Assembly (NCBI GenBank): GCA_016879935.1
Contig: JAACJQ010000210.1
Location: 1-62,322, forward strand
Direction: 5' to 3'
Source: Archangiaceae bacterium
Lineage (GTDB): Bacteria > Myxococcota > Myxococcia > Myxococcales > Myxococcaceae
Length of the DNA stretch: 62,322 nt
The translations under genes and the position numbers were made by a program. This document shows positions 10,523 to 16,876 of the stretch, one piece after another. Position 1 is the first letter of the stretch. The number at the start of each line of letters is the position of its first letter. A model generated the notes under the pieces. It did not search any database and had not been told where the DNA came from. It saw nothing but the letters and a program-made list of their open reading frames with translations.

Positions 10523-13500
10523 TCAGGGTACGGGGCGAACATAGATGTCGCTGAACGCATTCTGGTCGGCTGCCGACAGCGCGTCCTGCATGTCGAGGAC
10601 GGCGTACTGACCACCTCGAGAGAGGCGAACGTAGTTGCAGCCGTTGGCTCCGCCGAGCGCTCGCACGACCGGCTGCGAGACATTGGTGATGGTGGTTGGG
10701 GAGCGCCAGACGAAGCAGTCACGGGCCGTGCCGTTCGCGTCCATCGGAACACCTGGCAAGTTGGTCGCGGTCGAGATGAAGGAGAGCGCCAGACCGTCAT
10801 CGCTGAGGAACGTGTTCGAGCTGTCGCCGTTGCCCGAGGCAATCAGCGTCGAAGCGCCGTTGATGGCCGGGCGGCGGTAAATGAAGCGCGTGCCGCGGAC
10901 GGCGCCAGTTACTGGATCGTCGCGGGTGTCGAAGAAGAACGACGTGCCAGCATTGTTCGCTAGAAGGTTGGCTGCGCTGTCAGCTTGGGTCGTGCAAGTG
11001 AGTAGGCCCACATTGTTGTCGCGTGCGAGCCGCGTCGGAACGGGCCCCGGGTTCATCTCCACGAAATAGCCGTGTGAGCAGTCGTCGGGGATAAAGCCAA
11101 AAATAAAAGCGAACGTATTGTAACTAACCCAACGACCATTTCCCGAGAAGAAGCTCGAGCCCGTGTTCGACCCGTTGGACCCGAACTGTTGCGGAACGAT
11201 CCCGCCCATCGAGTTCAGCGAGGCCATGCGCATCACCGGAATCTGCCGGTCAAAGATGTAGATGTCGCCCTCGCCCTGGATGGCGTCGCCCGCAAAGAGG
11301 CCGGTCGAGCGGGTCGACCACATCACGTAGCGTCCGTCACGAGAGAGCACCGCGCTACTGAAGGATTCGGTATTGCCTTGTGGCTGACCGAGCGTGGTCG
11401 ACGTGATGCCAAAGCTGCGCGTGTTGTTCGTCAAGTCGATGACAATAACATCGTTCCCCGCGCCGTTCGTGTCGGGGACGATGGCAGGCCCTGTGGTAAT
11501 GAATGCCGCGAAGCGGCCATCAGCCGAGATGGTTCCACCAAACCCACCCTCCGCGAGCTGCTGACCGGCAGGCCCCGTCGAGAGCCGCGTCGTCGTGTTG
11601 GTGATGAGGTTGCGCAGGAAGACGTCGGGCTGTCCGTTCGTGTCATTCGGCACGAGGTTGGTCGCGGTCGAGGTGAAGACGACGAGTTTTCCGGAGTCGT
11701 CGACGTTCGGATCGACGCTGTTGCCGTTGCCTGCGCCGCCGTCGAGACCGACTGAGACGAGCACAGGAGCGTTCACACACGACGCCGCACGAACCTCACA
11801 CCCGTCGATCGCCAATCCGTTGCAATCGAGGAAGCCGGGGCTGCACACCGTCGTACAGCTCCCGGCCGCGCAGGCCGCCGCTCCATTCGCTCCAGCCGTA
11901 CACGTCACCCCGCACGCCCCGCAATTCGAGACATCGGTCTGCACGTCGACACACACCCCGCTGCTCGCCGCGTTCGCCACACACAACGTGCGCCCGCCCG
12001 TGCAGCTCGCCGAGTCGATGTTGCGCGTCGACAGCCGTGACACCTCGCACGCGTTCAACGCCACGTCGTCATAGATGCGCAGCTCGTCGAACGCGCCGCT
12101 GCCTCTCGAGTCATAGCCGCGGCCCGCCCAGTACGGAGTGCTCTTCGCGAAGTTCGCGATGGGGTAGGTGACACCGGCGTCTCGGTCTGCCGCGAGAACA
12201 CCGTCGATGTAGATGGCGTGCTGCTGGCCCTCGCGCGTCACGACGAGGTGGTGCCACTGGGCATCGTCCTCGCGAGCGGGGCTCACCCCGATGAGGGCGG
12301 TGTAGGCCGAGGCGCTGCTCTGGTCGAACTCGACCGAAGCACCGACCGGGTTGCCGCGAATGGAGAGGAACGTGCCTCCGCTGCCTTCGGTGCGGTTGCC
12401 GAAGATCTCACGCATGCCGTTGGGGCCCGTGCCCAGGTACCAGAGCGAGACCGAGAGGTTTCGACCGGTGGCCGTGATGATGTCCGACGGCAGCTCGACG
12501 AAGCGCCCGCCCGACGTCGGCGTGATGGAGGCGGCCGCGCCGAAAGCGCCAGACGTCACCGCTCCGGCGACCGTGGTGCCCGTCGTCGAGCTCAAGAAGC
12601 CACCCGCCGAGACGAAGCGGCCGGCCTTCGCGCCCGAGCTGCCGCCATCGGGCAGCATGCCGAAACCTCCCAGCAGGTTGCCGGCCACCGCCGTGGGAAC
12701 GACTTCTTCGAACGTCCATTCCCGGCTCGGCCGCGTGCGCACGCCGTGCTCGATGCGCAGCAGGTCGAAGCGTGAGCTGCCCGCCGTCGGCGCACCGTCG
12801 TTGTTGTTGGCGAACACCACCTTCGACCCCGACGCCGCACCCGAAATCGCCGCCGACAGCAGCAGCTCGTTCGCCGCGCCCTTGGTGTGCACCGACAGCT
12901 GCGCGCGCGCGCCGTCGTCGAACACCTCGAACACCACGGGCGCTCCAACCGCGAGCCCGCCGTCGAACACCGCCGTCGCCACCGAGACGCCGTTGTTGCG
13001 CAGCTCGAGCTGATCAGGCTTCACGATGAACTCGACACCCGAGTCGAGCTGAAACGCGCTGCCCGGTACGCCGCTGGTGCGAGTCCACACGTGGGCCCAG
13101 TCGTTGGTCACGCCGCTGGTGAACTCTCCGGTGATGCGCACGGCAGACGAGCTGGCGACCGCGTAGCTCTGCGCCGCCACCACGAGCGCGCTGCGATTGA
13201 CGACGAGCTGACCCGCGGCGACCGAGACCTGCGCACCGCCGTCGGCCGAGACGATTCTCCACCTGCCGGCGTTCGGGGCAGCGCCCGACGAGAAGTCGTC
13301 GAACGTCGCGGGGCGAATGCTGCCCAGGCAGCGGCCGAGCGTGCACGTGTCGGTGCCCGAGCACGCGTCGCCGTCGTCACACGCCGCGCCTTCGGCCTTC
13401 AGCGTCGCCGTGCAGCCACCATCGGCGGGAATGCACACGCTCGTCTCGAAGCAGGCAGTCGGGGTCGCGCACGTCGTGGGAGCCGTGCCGACGCACGCTC

Positions 13501-14374
13501 CGTTCTGGCAGACGTCGGTCGTCGTGCACGCGTTGGAGTCGTCGCAGCTGCCCGTGCGGTTCTGGTACTCGCACGCGCCGTTGGTGGCGTTGCAGGTGCC
13601 GCCCGTCTGACACGCGCCGGGCATCGGGCAGGTGCGCAGCGTCACGACGCAGCCGGCGTCGGTGGCCGAGACGATTTCACAGGGGTTCGACGAGGCGATG
13701 CAGGTGCCGGCGTCGAGGCCCATCGCGGGGAACTGCACGCAGTTGCCGGCCGAGCAGTACTCCGTCGCGTTGCAGGTACGGCCACACATGCCGCAGTTGC
13801 GCGGGTCGTTCTGCTGGTCGAAGCACGAACCGTTGCAGCCCATCGTTCCCGTGGGGCAGGGCGGCGGGCCGGCGTCGACGACGAGCACCCGACAGTTTCC
13901 GCCCGTGCAGTACTCGCCCGTGGCGCAGGTGGTGGTGCAGTTGCCGCAGTGGCCAGGGTCGTTGCGCAGGTCGAAGCAGACGCCGCTGCAGACCGAGAGC
14001 GGCGACTGGCAGGTGACGCCGGCGTCGCCGGAGCCGCCGCCAATCGTCGCGCAGGTGCCCATCACGCACGCTTCGTTGCTTCCACACGAGCGGCCGCAGG
14101 CGCCGCAGTTCGTCGGGCTCGAGCGCGTGTCGACACACTGACCGCTGCACGTCGTCTGACCGGTCGCACACGAGGCGGTGCAGGCTCCGGCGGTACACAC
14201 GCTGCCGGCGGCGCAGGCGTTGCCACAGGCGCCGCAGTGACGGCGGTCGTTCTGTGTGTCGACACAGACGCCATCACACGTCGTGCACGGTGTCGGTGCC
14301 GGGCCAACGCACGCCGACAGCACGGACAGCACCACCGCCGCAGCGAGCGGCATTCCACGCAGTCGAATCGTCAC
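10523..14374 (-). CDS. Giant Cys-rich lipoprotein with LamG-like and beta-propeller domains, 1283 aa
   Basis: The GTG start at 14374 has GGGGAGA eight bases upstream and yields a signal peptide ending in lipobox LSAC (about residue 23). Residues 25-370 are short Cys-rich units (CGACG, NCGxCG, 'C-x-D-xxxDxxHCG') of the kind common in myxobacterial surface proteins. A concanavalin/LamG-type region follows at about 360-760 ('WHHLVVTREGQQHAIYIDG'), then another Cys-rich segment and a TolB/WD40-like beta-propeller (about 860-1283) with 'SADGRFAAF' and 'SRDGRYVMWST' blades. Likely anchored to the outer membrane facing out. First gene of the kinase operon, a candidate input for it. Confidence 0.9.
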   Translation of the reverse strand: MTIRLRGMPLAAAVVLSVLSACVGPAPTPCTTCDGVCVDTQNDRRHCGACGNACAAGSVCTAGACTASCATGQTTCSGQCVDTRSSPTNCGACGRSCGSNEACVMGTCATIGGGSGDAGVTCQSPLSVCSGVCFDLRNDPGHCGNCTTTCATGEYCTGGNCRVLVVDAGPPPCPTGTMGCNGSCFDQQNDPRNCGMCGRTCNATEYCSAGNCVQFPAMGLDAGTCIASSNPCEIVSATDAGCVVTLRTCPMPGACQTGGTCNATNGACEYQNRTGSCDDSNACTTTDVCQNGACVGTAPTTCATPTACFETSVCIPADGGCTATLKAEGAACDDGDACSGTDTCTLGRCLGSIRPATFDDFSSGAAPNAGRWRIVSADGGAQVSVAAGQLVVNRSALVVAAQSYAVASSSAVRITGEFTSGVTNDWAHVWTRTSGVPGSAFQLDSGVEFIVKPDQLELRNNGVSVATAVFDGGLAVGAPVVFEVFDDGARAQLSVHTKGAANELLLSAAISGAASGSKVVFANNNDGAPTAGSSRFDLLRIEHGVRTRPSREWTFEEVVPTAVAGNLLGGFGMLPDGGSSGAKAGRFVSAGGFLSSTTGTTVAGAVTSGAFGAAASITPTSGGRFVELPSDIITATGRNLSVSLWYLGTGPNGMREIFGNRTEGSGGTFLSIRGNPVGASVEFDQSSASAYTALIGVSPAREDDAQWHHLVVTREGQQHAIYIDGVLAADRDAGVTYPIANFAKSTPYWAGRGYDSRGSGAFDELRIYDDVALNACEVSRLSTRNIDSASCTGGRTLCVANAASSGVCVDVQTDVSNCGACGVTCTAGANGAAACAAGSCTTVCSPGFLDCNGLAIDGCEVRAASCVNAPVLVSVGLDGGAGNGNSVDPNVDDSGKLVVFTSTATNLVPNDTNGQPDVFLRNLITNTTTRLSTGPAGQQLAEGGFGGTISADGRFAAFITTGPAIVPDTNGAGNDVIVIDLTNNTRSFGITSTTLGQPQGNTESFSSAVLSRDGRYVMWSTRSTGLFAGDAIQGEGDIYIFDRQIPVMRMASLNSMGGIVPQQFGSNGSNTGSSFFSGNGRWVSYNTFAFIFGFIPDDCSHGYFVEMNPGPVPTRLARDNNVGLLTCTTQADSAANLLANNAGTSFFFDTRDDPVTGAVRGTRFIYRRPAINGASTLIASGNGDSSNTFLSDDGLALSFISTATNLPGVPMDANGTARDCFVWRSPTTITNVSQPVVRALGGANGCNYVRLSRGGQYAVLDMQDALSAADQNAFSDIYVRPVP

Positions 14375-14555
14375 GAGTGTTCTCCCCAGAGAGTGGTGCA
14401 GCGTACCGTTGCGAGCGCGCACTTCGAGAAAATGCTGTCTGCTTTCGCGTGCTTCCGCGTCATGCCAGACGAGTGGGCAGTTCGGTGGGCGGGGCAGGGT
14501 GCTACAAGGCCCCCGCTTCTCGAAGTCGCAGCTTCGAGTGGAGGGGACCCCCGCG

Positions 14556-15446
14556 GTGATCGTTCGCAAGTACCTGAAGCTGTCGGTCGTCGCGCGAGTG
14601 CAGGGCCCACGTGTGCTGGTGGCCGCGGGATGGGCTTCGTTACTCGTGGGGCTCTTCGAGTTCCTGCCTGCGCCGTGGCTCTCGGTGCCGAACACGGCGG
14701 TGGGCCCGATGGCGACGGCACTGGCCATCTTCCTCGCGTTTCACAACAACGGCTCGTACGACCGCTGGTGGGAGGCGCGGAAGCAGTGGGGGCAGCTCGT
14801 GAACTCGAGCCGCTCCTTCGCGCGCCAGGTGAAGTCCTTCGTCGACGACGTGAGCGCGCACGCCGAGCTGATCCACCGGCAGATCGCCTTCGTGCACGCG
14901 CTGCGGTTTCACCTTCGCAAGCAGGCTGATCAGCTGCACGAGCTCGAGCCGTTGTTGCCGAGGGGTGAGCTCGACGAGGTGAAGAAGGCGAACAACGTGC
15001 CGCTCGCGCTCATGCAGAAGCAGTCAGACCGGCTGCGCGCGCTGCGGGCCGCTGGAGCACTCTCTGACTTTCGCGCGGTGCAGCTCGACCAGACCCTCAC
15101 CGACCTCGCCGACGTGCAGGGCGCGTGCGAGCGCATCAAGAACACGCCGCTGCCGAGGCAGTACGAGTTCTACACGCGGCTGTTCGTCTACTTCTTCGTA
15201 CTCATTCTGCCCGCGACGATGCTCGAGTCGCTGGGGTGGCGCACGCCGCTGTTCACCGTGCCGACGAGCTTCCTGTTCTTCGCGCTCGAGGGCGTCGCCT
15301 CGGTGAACGAAGACCCGTTCGAGAACCGAATTCAAGACACACCGATGACGGCGTTGAGCCGCACCATCGAGATCAACCTGCGTGAGCTGAACGGCGAGCG
15401 AGATTTGCCTCCCCCGCTGCAACCCGTCGATGGCTACCTGATGTGA
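14556..15446 (+). CDS. Bestrophin family (UPF0187/YneE-like) anion channel, 296 aa
   Basis: Shows the bacterial bestrophin signature: two N-terminal membrane segments (about 17-35 and 45-62), then 'HNNGSYDRWWEARKQWGQLVN', followed by the long cytoplasmic helical part and a second membrane pair (about 205-245, 'FVYFFVLILPATML' and 'TSFLFFALEGVA'), ending with 'NPFxNxxxDTPM'-type sequence (EDPFENRIQDTPM). The start is the GTG at 14556 with GGAGGGG about 10 bases upstream. Bestrophins are pentameric anion channels; several algal ones carry bicarbonate. The next gene starts 14 bases after this stop (or overlaps it) and looks like a carbonic anhydrase, which points to bicarbonate as the possible cargo. 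Confidence 0.92.
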   Translation: MIVRKYLKLSVVARVQGPRVLVAAGWASLLVGLFEFLPAPWLSVPNTAVGPMATALAIFLAFHNNGSYDRWWEARKQWGQLVNSSRSFARQVKSFVDDVSAHAELIHRQIAFVHALRFHLRKQADQLHELEPLLPRGELDEVKKANNVPLALMQKQSDRLRALRAAGALSDFRAVQLDQTLTDLADVQGACERIKNTPLPRQYEFYTRLFVYFFVLILPATMLESLGWRTPLFTVPTSFLFFALEGVASVNEDPFENRIQDTPMTALSRTIEINLRELNGERDLPPPLQPVDGYLM

Positions 15447-15460
15447 GTGGAGCGCCCGTC

Positions 15461-16876
15461 ATGAACCCTCCTGTTCCTCCTCCCGAGCTGCCCCTCGCCG
15501 AGCGCCTCGTGCGCGTGAACTTCACCGAGCGTCGCGTGCGCAACGCGGCCGGCGTGCCGCTGGTGCCGCCCGAGTACGCGGCCGACACCGGCAAACGCGT
15601 GGCGCTCATCGACGTGCGCGACGAAGGCGACCTCGTCGGCCCGCTCGGCCACATTCCCGGCGTGGTGCACGTGCCGCTCGCCGACGTGGCGCGCATTCCG
15701 TCGGTGTTGGGGCTCGACCAGGTCACGGTGCTCATCTCGAATCACACCGACCGCGCGGGCCGGGCGGCGCTGTTCCTCGAGGCGCTCGGCATGCCCTACG
15801 TCGCCGCGATGGAGGGCGGCATGGCGGTGTGGAAGGCGATGGGCTTCTCGACCTCGCGGCTCACGCTGTTCAAAGACCGGCCGCTCAAGAAGCTCGACCC
15901 GCCACCGCCGCCCCCCGCCGACGGCTTCCTCACGCGCGAGATGATTCACGCGCACGTGGGCCGGCGAGGCAGCGTGAAGTGGATGACGCTGGCCGCGTTC
16001 CTGACTCGAGGCCGCAGGAGCTGCGTCGATGGCCGTGACGACCACGGCGTCATCGGCACGCCGGGCGGAGACACCGGTGAGCTGGCGCTCGCGCTGGCGG
16101 CGTACGAAGCCACCACGGGTGTGACGCTCGAGCAGCACCACATCGACGCGCTCGTGCAGGCGTGGCTCGATACCTTCGGCCGCTTCTATCTGCACAGCGA
16201 CACGCCGACGGTGAACGCGCTCATTCCGAAGCTGCGCGCCGACCCACGGCTGACGAAGATTCTCGAGCCGCTGACACAGCCGATGCAGTGGCGCACGTTC
16301 CTCAAAGGGCCGCCGGTCGAAGCGCGGGAGCCGTTGCTCGAGTGGTACATGAAGCCCGAGGCGATGGGCTGCGGTCACCTGAAGTTGATGACGCTGCACC
16401 CCGAGACGTACGGCGTGCGGCCCGGCCTGGTGCCGCAGGTGCTGCGCGCGTTCTGGACGACGCGGTGGAAGGGCGCTCCCGAGCCCGAGTACGTGGTGCT
16501 CGGCGGCAGTCACGGTGAAGGCGCCGTGGTGAACGTGACGCTCGACGAGAAGCTGTGGACGTTCAGCAAGGTGCCGCTGCTGTCTCCGAGCGTCGACGGC
16601 CTGCAGATGTTCGTGAATCACCCGCAGGTGGCCAGACAGCTTCGCTCGCACGTCGCCGAGTTCCTCTTGCGCGTGGAGTCGCTGTTGCCGGCGGTGCCGA
16701 GCCAACGCAACACCCTCGTCGACAAGGTGTACGAGCTGGGCCAGCGGCACCTCGAGGCGACGCTCGGCGTGCTGGCGTCAGGCCTGCCGATGTTCGAGGT
16801 GCAGTTTCACGGTGGTGAAGACTTCTCGGTCACCGAATTGGCGAAGGCCGACCCGTCGAAGCGCAAGAGTCACTGA
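15461..16876 (+). CDS. Rhodanese-like domain fused to CDCA/zeta-type carbonic anhydrase-like domain, 471 aa
   Basis: Residues 25-125 form a rhodanese fold ('RVALIDVRDEGD' to 'EGGMAVWKAMG'), but the active-site loop reads ISNHTDRAG, with Ser where the catalytic Cys should be, so it is probably inactive. After a Pro-rich linker, residues 150-450 show the landmarks of cadmium/zeta carbonic anhydrases of diatoms: CVDGR (Cys188), GTPGGDTGE, a YLHSD segment (His245), MGCGHLKL (Cys304) and 'GGSHGEGAVVNVTLDE'. Cys188, His245 and Cys304 match the family's Cys-His-Cys metal site. It would interconvert CO2 and bicarbonate in the cytoplasm. ATG 15461 has GGAG eight bases upstream; a GTG at 15443 overlapping the bestrophin stop is the alternative. 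The similarity is from memory and needs a structural check. Confidence 0.65.
   Translation: MNPPVPPPELPLAERLVRVNFTERRVRNAAGVPLVPPEYAADTGKRVALIDVRDEGDLVGPLGHIPGVVHVPLADVARIPSVLGLDQVTVLISNHTDRAGRAALFLEALGMPYVAAMEGGMAVWKAMGFSTSRLTLFKDRPLKKLDPPPPPPADGFLTREMIHAHVGRRGSVKWMTLAAFLTRGRRSCVDGRDDHGVIGTPGGDTGELALALAAYEATTGVTLEQHHIDALVQAWLDTFGRFYLHSDTPTVNALIPKLRADPRLTKILEPLTQPMQWRTFLKGPPVEAREPLLEWYMKPEAMGCGHLKLMTLHPETYGVRPGLVPQVLRAFWTTRWKGAPEPEYVVLGGSHGEGAVVNVTLDEKLWTFSKVPLLSPSVDGLQMFVNHPQVARQLRSHVAEFLLRVESLLPAVPSQRNTLVDKVYELGQRHLEATLGVLASGLPMFEVQFHGGEDFSVTELAKADPSKRKSH

Follow-up and report, generated by a model that had tools for sequence, protein, structure and literature searches.

Results

The gene pair

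The window analysed here is a stretch of DNA of 62,322 nucleotides, taken from a 9.5 Mb Myxococcota assembly, in which a bestrophin gene is followed on the same strand by a gene for a rhodanese fused to a C-terminal domain resembling zeta-class carbonic anhydrases (CAs), the class that includes the cadmium carbonic anhydrases (CDCA) (Table 1). The gap between the bestrophin stop codon and the ATG at 15461 is 14 bases, and an alternative in-frame GTG at 15443 would make the fusion gene overlap that stop. The first-pass annotation of this DNA had described a bestrophin gene and a second gene lying 14 bases apart or overlapping, and this arrangement is borne out by the ORF list and by the match to PF25539.

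Table 1. Features of the bestrophin and fusion genes, in positions of the window
Feature	Position	Strand	Evidence or remark
Bestrophin_2 family channel gene	14556..15446	+	296 aa, GTG start, MIVRKYLKL...; PF25539 E 3.5e-73; KpBest 4wd7 E 1.1e-39 (aligned)
Rhodanese-zeta-CA-like fusion gene	15461..16876	+	471 aa, ATG start; translation and ORF list
Rhodanese domain, residues 45-126	15593..15838	+	PF00581 E 6.6e-9; nearest PDB entry: BpPRF, in its rhodanese part
Ser93 in the rhodanese catalytic Cys position	15737..15739	+	alignment of 27 homologues
Predicted zeta-CA-like (CDCA-like) domain	15911..16876	+	AF2 model pLDDT 88.8; VIA-align Z 9.4-9.7 to all listed CDCA entries
CVDGR, residues 188-192: predicted metal ligand Cys188 and Asp190/Arg192 dyad	16022..16036	+	invariant; equals CVDGR of CDCA repeats
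PGG, residues 201-203	16061..16069	+	invariant; common to CDCA KMPGG; ordered-motif test
HSD, residues 245-247: predicted metal ligand His245	16193..16201	+	H and D invariant; CDCA VHGD; ordered-motif test
Helical insert of ~50 residues between His and second Cys	16202..16366	+	motif spacing; helices at model residues 98-146
GCG, residues 303-305: predicted metal ligand Cys304	16367..16375	+	GCGH invariant; CDCA MLGCGFFKLW aligned
GSHGE, residues 349-353	16505..16519	+	HxE invariant; matches CDCA GSHxE; ordered-motif test

Both the Bestrophin_2 profile and homology to KpBest place the upstream gene product among the bestrophins. Aligned to KpBest, its neck residues are Thr54-Ile58-Phe62 and not the anion-selective I-F-F, which is a feature of eukaryotic anion-channel bestrophins; the middle neck residue is Ile or Leu in every bestrophin linked to a homologue of the fusion gene. 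KpBest itself has the neck I-I-F and is a Na+ channel, in which the change I66F favours Cl- (PMC8496536). Since the middle Ile is of the KpBest type, the premise of an anion channel, from which the annotation had started, is weak. Bicarbonate transport has been proposed for algal bestrophins (PMC8438413).

A second bestrophin gene of the source genome (contig C299, L085:4793-5664) is split between frames and contains an internal TGA. On the minus strand of the window, positions 10523-14728 encode a long protein that is rich in Cys and in which C-G-x-C units recur; its mechanically assigned start overlaps the bestrophin gene, and the true start probably lies lower.

Motifs and conservation of the C-terminal domain

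The numbering Cys188/His245/Cys304 given for the C-terminal domain is exact, as judged from the translation and the motif positions, and the CVDGR motif noted there is present. In alignments of 20-25 homologues, with identity down to 29-40% and including a second phylum, the residues found to be invariant (window numbering) are C188, D190, G191, R192, P201-G202-G203, H245, D247, G303-C304-G305-H306, H351 and E353, and at the sequence level the Cys/His/Cys ligands and the Asp-Arg dyad follow the CDCA order. Each of the three CDCA repeats and 30 ORFs of the family contain the ordered pattern CxDGR-PGG-HxD-GCG-GxHxE, which is absent from the approximately 2,470 other ORFs scanned; given this absence and the invariance of Cys, His, Cys, PGG and HxE among the homologues, the five-block motif is not a product of chance. 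The spacing from the His to the second Cys is 59 residues in the window protein, compared with 10 in CDCA, and helices fill the difference. Only one such domain is present in the window protein and in each homologue read, as opposed to the tandem repeats of CDCA1.

Profile searches and predicted fold

The annotation had proposed an HMM search against the cadmium carbonic anhydrase family, and in this search the Pfam CDCA model did not match the domain. Pfam and NCBIfam scans of the C-terminal domain returned no CA family even at E 10, and the curated cut-off of PF18484 (CDCA) was reached neither by the window protein nor by 25 homologues, with 0 of 195 Myxococcota genomes containing a match above it. 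PF00484 (Pro_CA) likewise gave no match to the C-terminal domain at E 10, which leaves it outside the beta-CAs as defined by that profile, and searches of the PDB by phmmer and with profiles recovered only rhodaneses and noise, and no CDCA. Against a CDCA profile of only three rows, hhalign aligned 15 columns consisting of the GCG block alone, a shortness that is probably due to the thinness of the CDCA profile together with the insert, which breaks the local alignment. Our own profile alignment, in which gaps were cheap, gave scores of 135, 117 and 99 for the three CDCA repeats, as against a mean of 84 (sd 12, maximum 120) for 400 shuffles, so that one repeat exceeds all of the shuffles, the third is non-significant and the significance overall is moderate.

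Structure prediction was carried out with AlphaFold (AF2, no templates) for the window domain (pLDDT 88.8) and for L088, a stand-alone homologue that is approximately 36% identical to it (pLDDT 91.6). When the model of the window domain was compared using VIA-align, all five listed CDCA entries were matched at Z 9.4-9.7, followed by a beta-CA at Z 3.3; for the L088 model the CDCA entries scored Z 11.8-12.6 and were followed by CsoSCA at Z 3.9, with the CDCA matches of both models spanning 177-185 residues. Foldseek placed CDCA at rank 1 for the window domain with a probability of 0.94, but with an E value of 0.1, and for L088 at rank 10 only (E 3.3). Two separately predicted models therefore match the CDCA fold in VIA-align, and the first alone does so at rank 1 in Foldseek. 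A Foldseek search of the model against a library of viral structures gave nothing useful, and no relatives of the domain were found in the viral contigs scanned.

According to the first-pass annotation its reading would fall if the domain lacked a structural match to CDCA; such a match was found in both models, and the proposed relation to zeta-CAs is thus borne out at the level of predicted structure. Taken together with the motifs, this indicates that the C-terminal domain is probably a distant bacterial homologue of zeta-CAs lying outside curated PF18484, and we infer from it a zeta-CA-like way of working, with metal binding and CA activity.

The rhodanese domain

The rhodanese had been described as inactive, which holds for the window protein, where Ser93 occupies the place of the catalytic Cys of the active-site loop, but not as a rule of the family, as approximately one third of the homologues keep the Cys. 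Among the 27 aligned homologues, the residue at this position is Ser in 17, Cys in nine and His in one, and sulfurtransferase activity is therefore inconstant in the system. The N-terminal rhodanese is present in all Myxococcota forms read over their full length and in L035; stand-alone domains with no rhodanese fusion occur among the homologues from the second-phylum class. Devoid of the catalytic Cys here, the fused rhodanese would most likely act as a docking or redox-sensing module.

Distribution and gene neighbourhoods

The family was found in 20 of 195 Myxococcota genomes (~10%) and, in one class of a second phylum, in five of 245 genomes, one of these matches being marginal (E 5.5e-4). 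In G184 an in-frame TGA interrupts the zeta-CA frame close to where the CA part begins (L036:3889-4927), and the copy in G143 (L075) is split between frames; in both cases assembly error or decay is possible. The second copy of G112 (L068:1277-4239) is rhodanese-fused, has no bestrophin neighbour and adjoins the gene of a membrane protein that contains a spermine/spermidine synthase domain.

A bestrophin neighbour is present in approximately 12 of the 26 rhodanese-fused genomes with readable flanks (the window, G151, G154, G112, G076, G082, G086, G090, G068, G147, where it lies on the downstream side, G184 and L033). About half of the homologues show no such adjacency; those lacking it include G153, G069-G072, G182, L031, L032, L034 and L035. 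On the tree of the domain the bestrophin label needs six changes and the linkage lies on several separate branches. A second tree, of bestrophins with and without the linkage, spreads the linked ones over several clades, the starred branches forcing five changes; it does not separate gain of the linkage from its loss. Genomes carry approximately 0-6 bestrophins, from which our own arithmetic gives an expected chance adjacency of well below 1% per genome, and in G184 and G201 no bestrophin other than the linked one was detected. The annotation's expectation that the pair would be conserved outside the source genome is accordingly upheld, with the adjacency recurring on several branches and with bestrophins of different clades. 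The idea of the adjacent bestrophin as a single co-inherited partner was dropped, as the linked bestrophins belong to different clades.

Other membrane carriers occupy the same place elsewhere. In L030, a Myxococcota MAG in whose genome no bestrophin was detected, the fusion gene lies directly downstream of dabA-dabB (PF10070 E 7e-151; PF00361 E 2e-40; L030:2-4912). In the second phylum, L088 (L088:919-10248) shows the order SulP, zeta-CA-like gene, SulP and MBL/rhodanese, with an SQR-like flavoprotein nearby, a neighbourhood that is possibly a carbon-plus-sulfur cluster; the order is the same in L097, with SulP on both sides and one SulP cut by the contig end. In L098 (L098:850-6076), the zeta-CA-like gene stands beside TauE/SafE, MBL-rhodanese and two Sulf_transp (YedE-type) genes, and the Nannocystis homologues come after an amino-acid permease gene. 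What these neighbourhoods have in common is a soluble CA-like protein encoded next to a membrane protein that carries inorganic carbon or small anions. The proposed pairing of channel and anhydrase is thus sustained insofar as the bestrophin linkage recurs, but bestrophin shares its place with other transporters, DAB and SulP being linked to the gene in different lineages.

Discussion

Proposed function

The reading that we favour, with moderate confidence, is that the window protein is a zeta-like carbonic anhydrase serving adjacent inorganic-carbon transporters, with the rhodanese as a docking or redox module. Its single CA-like domain would combine a metal site of the Cys/His/Cys type and an Asp-Arg dyad with an additional helical insert. 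The enzyme, soluble and presumably cytoplasmic, would convert CO2 into bicarbonate and back on the inner side of a membrane carrier of inorganic carbon encoded next to it. The carrier would be the bestrophin in this genome and DabA/DabB or paired SulP in relatives. DAB complexes carry out inorganic carbon uptake, also in heterotrophs (PMC13144422; PMC8438413), and the SulP family includes bicarbonate transporters as well as sulfate permeases (PMC10880623). In this heterotroph the enzyme would provide or withdraw bicarbonate to meet the needs of carboxylation reactions and of pH balance, with the channel moving either bicarbonate or the compensating ion. The analysis shows the gene structure, the conserved residues, the match in predicted fold and the recurring linkage; physical coupling to the carrier, the direction of flux, the part played by the rhodanese and the distant homology itself are all points that we infer.

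The RuBisCO large subunit was not detected in the source genome, in keeping with the earlier description of a non-photosynthetic bacterium, and neither was DabA; a role of the CA in Calvin-cycle carbon fixation was dropped on these grounds. The source genome does encode beta-CAs, so that the domain is not its sole CA, and taken together these results make the supply of bicarbonate or the control of pH a more probable role than carbon fixation.

Alternative explanations

The main rival, prompted by the position of some homologues among sulfur genes, is that the zeta-CA fold serves here as a CS2 or COS hydrolase, instead of or besides acting on CO2, which would release H2S and CO2 and leave the sulfide to be handled by the rhodanese and the sulfur genes. 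Consistent with this are the rhodanese fusion of the Myxococcota family, with its catalytic Cys kept in nine homologues, the MBL-rhodanese and SQR-like flavoprotein of the L088 neighbourhood, the TauE/SafE, MBL-rhodanese and two Sulf_transp genes beside the L098 homologue, and the transport of sulfate also by SulP proteins; in addition, zeta-CAs with CS2 hydrolase activity are the subject of a 2021 paper, going by its title in the reference list of PMC13144422. In the window protein and most bestrophin-linked homologues, however, the rhodanese site holds Ser, and no sulfur genes were observed next to their genes. DabA/DabB and bestrophins are not known to have a role in sulfur metabolism, and we consider hydrolysis of CS2 or COS unlikely, albeit deserving of serious attention. 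Somewhat less probable still is that a CA-fold domain of weak catalytic power senses bicarbonate or pH and gates the adjacent channel or transporter, the rhodanese providing a redox input: fusion to a mostly Cys-less rhodanese, the ordinary beta-CAs of the genome and the adjacency to DabA, which itself has a CA-like site (PMC13144422), would fit such a sensor, but the full conservation of the ligands and the Asp-Arg dyad over two phyla suggests selection on catalysis.

The remaining alternatives concern the identity of the domain and the meaning of its neighbours. The absence of a profile-level sequence match, the 50-residue insert and the appearance of beta-CA and CsoSCA at low Z could all be explained if the domain were not homologous to zeta-CAs and were a convergent protein, or a separate offshoot of the beta-CA superfamily, sharing the C/H/C site. 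Against this stand the wide gap in Z that separates CDCA from beta-CA for each of the two models and the PGG and GSHxE blocks in CDCA order, and we hold it to be improbable. The neighbourhoods might also be incidental, with no functional tie between the protein and the bestrophin, as the genomes lacking the adjacency would suggest; yet an arrangement expected at random in well under 1% of genomes recurs on several branches and with bestrophins of different clades, and other carbon-type transporters are also linked to the domain, making mere coincidence very improbable.

Novelty and significance

We found neither a bacterial rhodanese-zeta-CA nor its pairing with a bestrophin described in the open-licence literature searched. 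Zeta-CAs are reported as mainly restricted to diatoms and protozoa (PMC13098186, a 2026 survey; PMC7215798), and as a 2024 survey counted zeta-CA Pfam matches among prokaryotes (PMC10880623), a bacterial zeta-CA as such is not wholly unreported. We give about an even chance to a broader proposal, namely that a widespread, unannotated bacterial clade of zeta-CAs, missed by the Pfam CDCA model, serves as the soluble partner of several mutually unrelated carriers of inorganic carbon (bestrophin, DAB and SulP) in bacteria that lack RuBisCO, and that zeta-CA would then be an old bacterial class and not peculiar to diatoms.

If true, a bacterial family with a predicted zeta fold would offer a possible bacterial root for the zeta class and simple single-domain enzymes for the study of Zn and Cd use, and would point to coupling of transporters and CAs in heterotrophs. 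Bacterial bestrophins, the physiological role of which is obscure, would gain a partner that can be tested, and a single enzyme around which bestrophin, DAB and SulP have repeatedly been exchanged would constitute a natural experiment on how transporters and enzymes are coupled.

Comparison with known systems

The closest known counterpart is CDCA1 of Thalassiosira weissflogii (PDB 3BOB, 3BOH, 3UK8, 7BEZ; PF18484), which has the same predicted fold (Z up to 12.6), the CVDGR, PGG, HxD, GCGxxKL and GSHxE blocks in a common order and the set of two Cys and one His. In contrast with the three repeats of CDCA1, the bacterial protein has a single domain with an insert of ~50 residues and scores below the Pfam cut-off, and it is fused to a rhodanese and encoded beside transporter genes. 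The beta-CAs, including CsoSCA, have in common with it the C-x-D-x-R ... H ... C logic of the metal site, but reach only Z 3-4 and show no Pro_CA match.

Coupling of CA-type chemistry to a membrane transporter is likewise the principle of the DAB/MpsAB systems (DabA PF10070, DabB PF00361), and one homologue lies directly downstream of dabA-dabB; the protein described here is, however, a separate, zeta-like and rhodanese-fused one, in a genome where no DabA was detected. A functional pairing of bestrophins with a CA is also found in the Chlamydomonas CCM, between the bestrophin-like proteins BST1-3 and a luminal CA, although that CA, CAH3, belongs to another class, whereas here the two genes are adjacent and the host is a bacterium without detected RuBisCO. 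Finally, the SulP genes flanking the stand-alone homologues L088 and L097 recall the bicarbonate transporters of the BicA type, with the differences that transporter and enzyme are here encoded by separate genes, that the enzyme is predicted to be zeta-like rather than a beta-CA, and that SulP proteins also carry sulfate.
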